From contig JAJPJR010000075.1 in the NCBI GenBank assembly GCA_021324165.1, positions 1-42,306 of the forward strand: DNA of 42,306 nucleotides, read 5' to 3'. This document shows positions 19,961 through 24,281 of this stretch, piece by piece. Source of the DNA: Armatimonadota bacterium (GTDB lineage Bacteria; Armatimonadota; Fimbriimonadia; Fimbriimonadales; ATM1). The position numbers and the translations under genes are program-made. The notes under the pieces are model-generated. The model saw only the letters and a list, made by a program, of their open reading frames with translations, ran no database searches and was not told the DNA's origin. Positions within the stretch are counted from its first letter, which is position 1; every line of letters starts with the position of its first letter.

Positions 19961-20770
19961 TTAGTCACAGGCCCAGTACCAAGTGCCGTAGTCGCTGTTC
20001 GGTTCTCCGGACTGATGGCCGGTCGGCTCGACGATGGTTTCATCGAACGGCCCTGCGCCCACGATGTGCTTGGAATGGCCGTCGGCAAACAGCATGTTGC
20101 CTCCGGTCGAGTGCCACTGCCTGTAATAGTTGTATGGCGGGTCGCAATCGTATCCGTATCTTTCACACGCATCGGGTGTGTTCTTTCTGTCGAAGATGGG
20201 AAACATTTCATCGCGCAGAATGCGTGAATCAGACGGGTAAATGATCTCCGACTCTTTGACGATTTTTGTGTAATCGAAAGGCACATTGTTGCGCGTGCTT
20301 ACGTCTTTCACCACGCTGAACATGCATTTGGTGAAATGATAGCTGCTGCCGTACGCCTTCCAATAACTGTCGGCGCCGGGCACATCTTGAAATGTGAACG
20401 GCCCTCCGAAATCCAACGGGCACCGGAAAATCTCGTTCAGCGGGATGATCAGTTGTCCGGTTGAATCCGACTTCGACTGTCTCATGCCGATATAAGGGTT
20501 GAGTGCGACCTCGATTCCGTAGTGTCCGTTTTTTTCGGCAGGAGGCTGACTGTTATAGTCGGTAAAGATCGGATACGTTCCGTTTTCGTCGCTCAGGTAC
20601 AGGCCGAGCGCCATGCCGATCTGCCTTGTGTTGGAAAGGCAGTTTGTGCGTTTGGCCGCCTCTTTTGCGCGGCTGAAAACGGGAAACAGCACGGCGGCCA
20701 GAATCGCGATGATCGCGATGACGACCAAAAGTTCGATCAGAGTGAACGCTCTGCTTCGGTTCGAATTCAT
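19961..20770 (-). CDS. Prepilin-type protein with H-X9-DG motif (DUF1559-like), preceded by a TPP riboswitch
   Basis: With ATG 20770 (AAGGAG 8 nt upstream), the N-terminus is [20 protein letters not shown], a type IV prepilin leader cut after the AF/TLIE site, with Glu at +5 and a hydrophobic assembly helix. Then [22 protein letters not shown] and the C-terminal [12 protein letters not shown] (H-X9-DG), the hallmark of the large pseudopilin-like family expanded in planctomycetes and Armatimonadota. 269 residues. The family is thought to form or decorate pili or secretion pseudopili; a specific partner is not known. The gene is directly downstream of a TPP aptamer and terminator, so transcription should fall when thiamine pyrophosphate is abundant. 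It converges with flhB. Confidence 0.92.
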
Positions 20771-20788
20771 TTTTTCGCTCCTTGTGAG

Positions 20789-20820
20789 CAAAAACGCCGC
20801 TCCGCGGGCTGCGGAGCGGC
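20789..20820 (-). terminator. Rho-independent terminator of the TPP riboswitch
   Basis: On the minus strand, GCCGCTCCGC (20811-20820) and GCGGAGCGGC (20796-20805) form a 10-bp perfect stem with a 5-nt loop, followed by GTTTTT. The CTCCGC of its 5-prime arm can pair instead with GCGGAG at the end of aptamer helix P1, giving an antiterminator. Confidence 0.92.
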
Positions 20821-20836
20821 CGAAACTCGAACGCTC

Positions 20837-20926
20837 TCCGCTTCCCTACGCCGGTTTTCAGCCGGATCAGGTTCCAAGGGTCTCTTCTTGCGAAAACTCT
20901 CAGCCCAAACGGGCTCCCCTAGCGGA
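20837..20926 (-). ncRNA. TPP riboswitch (THI element) aptamer
   Basis: The minus strand carries the whole conserved THI core: CTAGGGGAGCC, GGCTGAGAG, then ACCCTTGGAACCTGATC, a CCGG-loop-CCGG helix and GCGTAGGGAAGCGGA. P1 is TCCGCT (20921-20926) with AGCGGA (20837-20842). All positions that contact thiamine pyrophosphate (CUGAGA, CCUGAUC, GCGUAGGGA) are intact. It lies 26 nt after the stop of the 280-aa gene, where TAAATT could be its -10. Confidence 0.96.
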
Positions 20927-20951
20927 ACGGTGTTTTGCTGCTCAACGCAAT

Positions 20952-21794
20952 TTACCCTCCGCCGTGTTTGCTTTTCTTGGCATGACCGCCGCCCTTTTGC
21001 GCGGGTGCGCCGCGTTTCGGGCCGTGCGCAGTTTGGCGCTGCATTTTGCGCGGCTGGTTGTGCATTTTCGGCGCATGAGCAGGCGACATGCCGCGGGGAC
21101 TCGATCTGTACTTAAAGTTGTTCTTGGGACTCGGCGCGGTTTTCACCCGGCGGCTGGAAGGCGCAGTTCTGATTCCCGAATGAGATTCCTGATACGACCA
21201 TCGCATGTGCGGCTCGAATGTGCGCCCAACCGTGTTCCAACTTCTGCTGCGTTCGTATTGTGCAAAAACCTCCTGCGGACGGCGGCGCGATTCGACGGCG
21301 ATCGCCGTGCCGGCGGCGATGCGCGACCAGTTCCATCCGCGGTTTCGCCAAACGGTGATCTCGTTTCGAGAGCATCCGTTGTCGAGAAGAACCGGTTCCC
21401 AACATTCTTGATACACCACCGTGTCGGGAATCCGAATCAGTTCATAGCCTGGATCATAAAACACCTCGGGACCGCAATCCATGCGCGAAGCGATTACGCC
21501 CCAGCTGTATCCGCGGCGGCGAAGGATTAGAACGTCTTCCAGAGGGCAGCCGCATGCGCGGGAGATTCGCAGAGCGGGGCCCATGTAATAGATCGGAACA
21601 CCGTAGCGGCGGCCGGTCGAAATGATAAACGTAGCATCCAGATTGAATGCGCGCGCCAGCAGATATGCGGCTGCCGCCTGTTCAATCGAAAGGTTGTTTC
21701 GTGCAGCGATCACCGTGATCTGCGCCCTCGCAGGAAACGCGGTGATGAGCGCAAGCGCGGCGATCGGAAACTGTTTGGCGATTGTCCTTAACAT
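20952..21794 (-). CDS. Exported protein with a long basic His/Lys/Gly-rich tail, 280 aa
   Basis: The start at ATG 21794 follows a perfect AAGGAGGTGA. A signal peptide (MLRTIAKQFPIAALALITAFPARAQ) leads into a helical domain (ARNNLSIEQAAAAYLLARAFN), a repeated Trp-containing unit (RRRGYSWGVIASRMD and WRNRGWNWSRIAAGTA, at about residues 92 and 150) and a final 100-residue low-complexity tail rich in Pro, Lys, His, Gly and Ser. The Trp-containing segments look like two copies of the same short motif. I do not recognise the family. A basic tail like this could bind polysaccharide, nucleic acid or metal; this is inference. The frame is open upstream to 21908 but without a start signal. Confidence 0.8.
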   Translation of the reverse strand: MLRTIAKQFPIAALALITAFPARAQITVIAARNNLSIEQAAAAYLLARAFNLDATFIISTGRRYGVPIYYMGPALRISRACGCPLEDVLILRRRGYSWGVIASRMDCGPEVFYDPGYELIRIPDTVVYQECWEPVLLDNGCSRNEITVWRNRGWNWSRIAAGTAIAVESRRRPQEVFAQYERSRSWNTVGRTFEPHMRWSYQESHSGIRTAPSSRRVKTAPSPKNNFKYRSSPRGMSPAHAPKMHNQPRKMQRQTAHGPKRGAPAQKGGGHAKKSKHGGG

Positions 21795-21929
21795 GAGATT
21801 CACCTCCTTAAACGTTCGATAGGCTTCTCGATTCTCGCCAAACGGTTTGAGTCGTGCGGCTGCCCAGATGTTCGCACTCTGCTCCAGGATCACCTTCAAA
21901 AACCGCAAGATTGCCAGGTGGGTTTTGTG

Positions 21930-23027: not shown

Positions 23028-24281
23028 ATGAACTGGATTTTGGTAGTCGGCGCGGCGGCGCTGCTTGCGGGGTGCGGAGGAAACGATTTGACCGATGAAT
23101 CAGGGAGTTCGAAAACGTTGAAGGAGAGCGAATCGGTCAGAAACTCGGCCACAAAACAGCTCATTGACGCTCCATCCAAAAAACTGATTGCGGCGCAAAG
23201 TTCGCTTGGGTTCAAACTGCTGGCACCCGTGTCGGGCGCGAACGCCTCGATCTCTCCTGTGAGCGTTTCGCAGGCGCTGGGAATGGTTTACAACGGCGCC
23301 GGCGGCGAAACCAAATCGCAGATGGAACGCGCCTTGGGCTATTCAGGTTTGCAGCTGGCTGAGATTAATTCTGCGAATCGAGCCGCACGCATTTTGGCCG
23401 ATAACATTGATCCAAAAGTCGAATTGAGAATCGCCAACAGCATCTGGGTGAACAAAAACCTGACCCTCGAGCCGACGTTTTTGAAAACCAACGACGAGTC
23501 TTATGCCGCCGAAGTGTCTTCGCTCGATTTTTCTAATCCAAAGTCGCCCGATACCGTGAACGGATGGGTCAGCCAGAAAACCAAAGGCCGAATTCCTTCG
23601 ATCCTTGATCAGATTTCCCCTGACGCCGGCGCGCTGCTCATCAACGCGGTGTATTTCAAAGGCGTCTGGTCGGAGCCGTTCGCCAAGGATGCCACGCGGC
23701 CGTCGCCGTTTCATCTCTCTTCGGGACAGACCGCCGATGTGCAGATGATGCATCGCCATGGCAGCTACGAGTTTTTCGAACGCGAGGAGAACAAGGCCGT
23801 GAAAATCCCGTTCGGATCGAACCGTCTGAGCATGATTCTAATTCTGCCTCCGGCGGGCGCGCCGCTTTCCGAATATGTTAGTTCGCTCGCCAACGGCGGA
23901 TGGGATTCCATCATCGGCAATCTGCATTCGGCAGATGTTGATTTGGCGCTTCCGAAGTTTACGTTTTCGTTCGCGGCGTCTTTGAAATCGTCGCTCGCAA
24001 ACCTCGGAGTCAAAGACCTTTTCGTTCCTGGGAAGGCTGATCTTTCGATGATGAGAAAAGCCAACGATCTTTTCGTTCAAGATGTGATTCACAAAACTTG
24101 GATTCAGGTGGACGAAGAGGGAGCCGAAGCCGCAGCGAGCACGGACGTTACTGTGGGGGTCACTTCCCTGCCGAAAACGGTCAGCTTCACTGCCGACCGT
24201 CCGTTTGTGTGGGCGATCGTTGACTCGCCGAGCGGCATGATCCTGTTTGCGGGCGTGGTGCAAGACCCTCGGGCGAAGTAA
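23028..24281 (+). CDS. Serpin-family lipoprotein
   Basis: Serpins are suicide inhibitors of serine or cysteine proteases. The 417-aa product has a lipobox (MNWILVVGAAALLAGCGG, lipidated Cys at about 16), a short linker, and a full serpin domain: NASISPVSVSQALGMVYNGAGGETKSQMERALG, ANSIWVNKNLTLEP, NGWVSQKTKGRIPSIL, LLINAVYFKGVWSEPF, MILILPPAG and the C-terminal RPFVWAIVDSPSGMILFAGVVQDP. The reactive-centre hinge EEGAEAAASTDVTVGVTSLP (from about 363) has small residues at P14-P9 as needed for inhibition; P1 is uncertain, near the SLPK segment. It is probably anchored at the outer membrane or on the cell surface. It is divergent from ogt. Confidence 0.95.
   Translation: MNWILVVGAAALLAGCGGNDLTDESGSSKTLKESESVRNSATKQLIDAPSKKLIAAQSSLGFKLLAPVSGANASISPVSVSQALGMVYNGAGGETKSQMERALGYSGLQLAEINSANRAARILADNIDPKVELRIANSIWVNKNLTLEPTFLKTNDESYAAEVSSLDFSNPKSPDTVNGWVSQKTKGRIPSILDQISPDAGALLINAVYFKGVWSEPFAKDATRPSPFHLSSGQTADVQMMHRHGSYEFFEREENKAVKIPFGSNRLSMILILPPAGAPLSEYVSSLANGGWDSIIGNLHSADVDLALPKFTFSFAASLKSSLANLGVKDLFVPGKADLSMMRKANDLFVQDVIHKTWIQVDEEGAEAAASTDVTVGVTSLPKTVSFTADRPFVWAIVDSPSGMILFAGVVQDPRAK

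Follow-up and report, generated by a model that had tools for sequence, protein, structure and literature searches.

TPP riboswitches (THI elements) usually lie ahead of thiamine genes. The salvage operons known to be controlled by such switches combine a thiamine pyrophosphokinase (TPK), which converts salvaged thiamine to TPP, with a transporter, such as thiV, thiXYZ, omr or thiT, or Dur31 in yeast. ThiV of the bacterial THI regulons belongs to the sodium:solute symporter superfamily (PMC2211319), and the SSF-family protein Dur31 of Candida is a proven thiamin transporter under the control of a TPP riboswitch (PMC5997356). Prepilin-type proteins, among them the type II secretion pseudopilin GspG and the major type IV pilins, have in common an N-terminal prepilin cleavage/methylation motif. 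A large group of them, the DUF1559-type prepilins, has to our knowledge no assigned function; genomes of Planctomycetota, Verrucomicrobiota, and Armatimonadota encode dozens to hundreds of these proteins each. Their Pfam family, PF07596 (SBP_bac_10), was once described as a solute-binding family (PMC2754498). We found no earlier report in the open-access literature of a TPP riboswitch placed ahead of a prepilin-type gene.

We analyzed a stretch of 42,306 nucleotides, named here the window, which corresponds to contig JAJPJR010000075.1 of an Armatimonadota bacterium of the order Fimbriimonadales (assembly GCA_021324165.1). The minus strand of the window carries a TPP riboswitch aptamer at 20826..20930, matched by the Rfam covariance model RF00059 over its full length (model positions 1–105) with 70.7 bits (gathering score, 54.3) and an E-value of 4.6e-12. 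The CUGAGA and GAACCUGAUCC motifs are both intact. A preliminary description, made from the sequence alone, had claimed a full THI aptamer here and had argued from its intact contact positions against decay; the RF00059 match, well over the gathering score, and the intact core bear out both points. The coordinates given then were correct to within a few bases, while the size of the aptamer is 105 nt according to Rfam and not 90 nt. This aptamer is the sole RF00059 match in the source genome (2.33 Mb). About 22 nt separate the aptamer from the end of the upstream ORF (20952-21908, minus strand), which may contain the riboswitch promoter. This ORF encodes a protein with a signal-peptide-like N-terminus and no Pfam match, and was not seen ahead of the switch in the relatives that we read.

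The region that follows the aptamer has the features of a complete expression platform. An intrinsic terminator hairpin (20796..20820, minus strand), detected by a terminator scan and by RNAfold, starts a few bases 3' of the end of the Rfam match. It is made up of a perfect 10-bp stem, with nine GC pairs and a free energy of -23.5 kcal/mol, and a five-nucleotide loop, AGCCC, and is followed by GTTTTTG (20795-20789). The scan, carried out over a 1.4-kb region, returned five terminator-like sites versus 2.6 in shuffled sequences, and the 20820-20796 hairpin is by far the strongest of them. The GCGGAG segment of the 3' strand of P1 (20836..20841, minus strand) is complementary to CTCCGC in the 5' arm of the terminator (20816-20811), and RNAfold of a transcript cut before the 3' arm of the terminator forms this alternative, antiterminator helix. 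A second hairpin, TTTTTGCTC/GAGCGAAAAA (20771..20794, minus strand), predicted by RNAfold of the leader, encloses part of the Shine-Dalgarno sequence AAGGAG (20778..20783, minus strand) of the pilin gene, which starts with an ATG at 20770. The order of terminator, AAGGAG, and pseudopilin gene first noticed is thus present, and the mutually exclusive aptamer and antiterminator, the layout of an OFF-switch, are supported by both sequence and folding.

From these features, we infer a functional TPP OFF-switch that acts on transcription termination. Abundant TPP would let the aptamer close P1 and the terminator form, so that no pilin would be made; under TPP shortage, the 3' strand of P1 would pair with the arm of the terminator, allowing pilin synthesis. 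The complete aptamer, the mutual exclusion of P1 and terminator, and the position directly before the Shine-Dalgarno sequence and start codon are shared with known TPP riboswitches that use a terminator platform, from which this locus differs in that the controlled gene is of the prepilin type. A single terminator mechanism for the whole clade of linked pilins described below is ruled out: clear terminators are observed in 10 of 78 pilin leaders across the clade, with 0.4 expected by shuffling. Most lineages therefore probably rely on another platform, which is probably translational.

The controlled gene (19961..20770, minus strand) encodes a protein of 269 residues, assigned by PF07963, PF07596, TIGR02532, our profile A1, and its linkage to a TPP-riboswitch-linked pilin subfamily of Armatimonadota. 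Its N-terminus carries the motif for cleavage and methylation by prepilin peptidase, as testified by scores of 35.5 bits for PF07963 (N_methyl, cut-off 21.2) and 28.8 bits for TIGR02532 (cut-off 16.3). The match to PF07596/DUF1559 is just over the cut-off (25 versus 23.3 bits) and covers only profile positions 2-41 of 268. The protein scores 32.3 bits with the GspG profile TIGR01710, against a curated cut-off of 88.85 bits; unlike its prepilin motif, its C-terminal part of about 200 residues is unrelated by sequence to GspG and PilA, all profile matches falling at the N-terminus. AlphaFold (pLDDT 80, with one good model out of five) predicts the long helix of pilins together with a C-terminal domain, and a fold search of the PDB with this model returned no significant or close solved structure, with a weak match to a type IV pilin (PilA1). 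With the DUF1559/PF07596 proteins of the three phyla named above, the protein shares the prepilin N-terminus, the DUF1559 start, and membership of a large paralogous family (the source genome has 29 pilin matches in total), whereas the riboswitch-linked pilins form a distinct clade. Downstream of the pilin gene lies the convergent end of a flagellar gene cluster, a gene that we take from its sequence to be flhB, leaving the pilin as the sole gene of its transcript here. Elsewhere in the window, a full serpin gene with a lipoprotein-like start (23028-24281, plus strand; PF00079, 341.6 bits) overlaps head-to-head with a methylguanine-DNA methyltransferase ORF.

The pairing of switch and pilin extends through the phylum. 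In about 38 of 61 genomes from the order, a TPP riboswitch precedes the best match of the pilin by 40-110 nt. A search of all 291 genomes of the phylum with profile A1, an alignment of 26 orthologs, conducted blind to riboswitches, yielded 142 ortholog loci in 136 genomes from 12 families. These orthologs score 179-456 bits (438 for the source pilin) versus at most 148 for paralogs, and form one monophyletic clade with a support of 1.0. A listed RF00059 match on the same strand accompanies 101 of the 142 loci, with a median gap of 73 nt. Forty of the other 41 loci were examined: 37 carry RF00059 above the gathering score and one carries it at 52.6 bits, just below. The remaining three of the 142 are second copies, two of them in tandem behind a linked copy and one with its leader outside the examined set. 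At least one copy is thus found directly behind a TPP riboswitch in each of the 136 pilin-bearing genomes (in one of them at 52.6 bits), kinship among the genomes inflating all of these counts. A loose riboswitch motif lies upstream of 2 of 104 other pilins. The generic prepilin N-terminus supplies the most conserved peptides of the pilin alignment, and a contig search with this alignment therefore returned mostly unrelated pilins; searching 50 whole genomes behind related pilin matches revealed the subfamily in only one, a Capsulimonas, itself a member of Armatimonadota.

Two simple artifacts can be set aside. That a riboswitch came to lie beside one of the many pilins by chance is ruled out, since it is the same orthologous clade each time. 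A recent deletion is ruled out by gene order, since none of the relatives has a thiamine gene between the switch and the pilin. The initial reading of the locus had left two alternatives: either pilin expression answers to TPP, or the pilin displaced the gene that the switch had formerly controlled. The latter, in which the riboswitch is the leftover of a lost thiamine gene and the pilin is there by accident, draws on the normal position of TPP riboswitches ahead of thiamine genes and on ten genomes of family f2, where thiC lies directly behind the same TPP riboswitch. Against it stand the linkage in 136 of 136 genomes from 12 families, the intact aptamer core, and the position of the pilin at the head of thiamine operons elsewhere (see below). 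Such a conserved pairing refutes a decayed or leftover riboswitch, and we regard an accidental association as scarcely credible. The former alternative is strongly supported by the same linkage, and the pilin is, as judged from these genome comparisons, a regular target of the TPP regulon.

Variations of the arrangement were also observed. Two riboswitch-family pilins lie in tandem behind one TPP riboswitch at G009:C10:162455-164792, G068:C3:37166-38766, and G079:C71:92977-95015. Two f4 genomes carry a second TPP riboswitch (G033:C18:2989-3099, L058, and G060:C9:417074-417176, L059), followed by genes for exported-looking proteins of 231 and 580 residues, respectively, with no convincing Pfam family; these genes are possible further members of the TPP regulon. 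In a genome of family f5 with neither thiC nor a pilin ortholog (G011, L057), the riboswitch (2273-2380) precedes a gene whose product, a membrane protein of 227 residues, belongs to no known family; this gene may be a substitute for uptake. In other families, a TPP riboswitch precedes what is, by its sequence, a Thi4-type thiazole synthase gene (L156, L157, L165, L167, L168, and L169).

The genes downstream of the pilin connect it to thiamine salvage. Outside the order, 37 genomes were read, 34 of them with room downstream of the pilin. TPK, identified by PF04263/PF04265/TIGR01378, is the next gene in 25 of these 34 and often overlaps the pilin gene or starts a few bases from its stop codon. 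In 19 of these 25 genomes, the third gene encodes a sodium:solute symporter of about 475 residues (PF00474), resulting in the order riboswitch-pilin-TPK-symporter. The farther neighbors differ between lineages, indicating that this order is retained and does not reflect general synteny. The pilin is thus co-operonic with TPK and a transporter, as are the members of a thiamine salvage regulon. Like the known salvage operons under TPP riboswitches, the operons of the sister families combine TPK with a transporter, here a symporter of the same superfamily as thiV/PanF and Dur31. They differ from those operons in being headed by the gene of an exported pilin, which is also their most conserved gene; in the order of the source genome, no gene other than the pilin was seen under the switch. 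Because it is the first gene of a TPK and symporter operon in sister families, the pilin is itself probably a thiamine gene and a previously unrecognized salvage component; to describe the switch as controlling a prepilin-type gene "instead of a thiamine gene", as was done at first, is probably wrong in terms of function. In the source genome, TPK followed by a homologous symporter is found on another contig (C15). A genome from the same family as the source (G006) carries TPK and the symporter and has neither riboswitch nor pilin, which indicates that the pilin is dispensable. Many pilin-bearing f4 genomes do not have this symporter, and the pilin is therefore not tied to that transporter.

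The gene content of the pilin-bearing genomes agrees with a salvage lifestyle. The source genome possesses TPK and lacks both thiC and thiE. Twelve of the order's 61 genomes have thiC, none of them pilin-bearing except for a 59-position fragment in G133. In the same set, thiE above the cut-off is confined to f2, with weak matches elsewhere (the borderline match of G004 exceeds the cut-off only when summed with its neighbors), and TPK occurs in nearly all pilin-bearing genomes. Over the phylum (n = 291), 130 genomes have the pilin only, 112 thiC only, 6 both, and 43 neither, a near-exclusion with a Fisher p of 3e-36, uncorrected for kinship. Mixed states occur inside f6, f11, f12, and f13, and the six genomes where pilin and thiC coexist count against a dedicated thiamine role. 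Pilin-bearing Armatimonadota thus appear to be mostly unable to make thiamine. In Fimbriimonas ginsengisoli, thiamine synthesis was reported as "completely absent" except for TPK (OP10G_4820) (PMC4072686). In G093, a genome with the riboswitch-pilin-TPK-symporter operon, thiC is in several pieces with an in-frame stop (C10, 72979-74218, and L249), perhaps a decay in progress.

We consider it fairly probable, on balance, that the pilin serves specifically in thiamine acquisition, under the control of a functional TPP OFF-switch. The pilin would be exported and processed by a type IV pilus/type II secretion-like machinery and would have its site of action beyond the inner membrane, where it might, for instance, capture thiamine or its phosphates. 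Transport of thiamine across that membrane would fall to a sodium:solute symporter, and its conversion to TPP to TPK. Thiamine is the putative substrate of the symporter, and the pilin itself may act by surface capture of thiamine or in a pilus or secretion role. Direct capture and a pilus or secretion function induced by thiamine hunger are both possible readings, given the many secretion and pilus ATPases of the source genome. The older solute-binding label of the DUF1559 proteins weakly favors capture. The most specific version, in which a TPP-repressed (pseudo)pilin binds thiamine outside the inner membrane and hands it over to the symporter, is a proposal that we put forward tentatively, at somewhat under even confidence.

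TPP starvation could also induce a general pilus or pseudopilus, with a pilin that itself handles no thiamine; such a structure could serve in adhesion to thiamine-producing neighbors or particles, in DNA uptake, or in type II secretion of a hydrolase. The protein is a true prepilin by its N-terminus (PF07963, TIGR02532), pilus and type II secretion ATPases are abundant in the source genome (11 PF00437 matches), and Fimbriimonas has fimbriae and 79 PulG-type genes (PMC4072686), all of which suit this explanation. However, the switch is placed on this one subfamily and not on the other pilins, be it the 29 matches of the source genome or the 104 pilins screened for the loose motif, and its place in one operon with TPK and symporter implicates thiamine itself, so that we consider a general pilus unlikely. 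A further variant concerns phosphorylated thiamine, which first requires dephosphorylation, since TPK needs free thiamine: the pilin could aid the processing or release of bound thiamine, for instance if it were a pseudopilin needed to secrete a phosphatase that converts TPP or TMP to thiamine outside the cell. The pilin indeed resembles type II secretion pseudopilins as much as pilins; but neither the operon nor its partly annotated neighborhood showed a phosphatase gene, and this variant seems improbable to us.

A dedicated role of the pilin in thiamine acquisition, our preferred reading, has several implications. One clade of DUF1559-type prepilins is now tied to a defined nutrient by regulation, operon structure, and phyletic pattern, and an exported pilin is added to the list of TPP riboswitch targets. 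Thiamine capture by the pilin, if true, would be a new way of vitamin acquisition and the first specific function in the large DUF1559 prepilin superfamily. The tie of one clade to a nutrient suggests that other members may be specific for other solutes, in keeping with the older solute-binding annotation of PF07596. For the thiamine-auxotrophic Armatimonadota, these findings suggest a route by which they may scavenge the vitamin.
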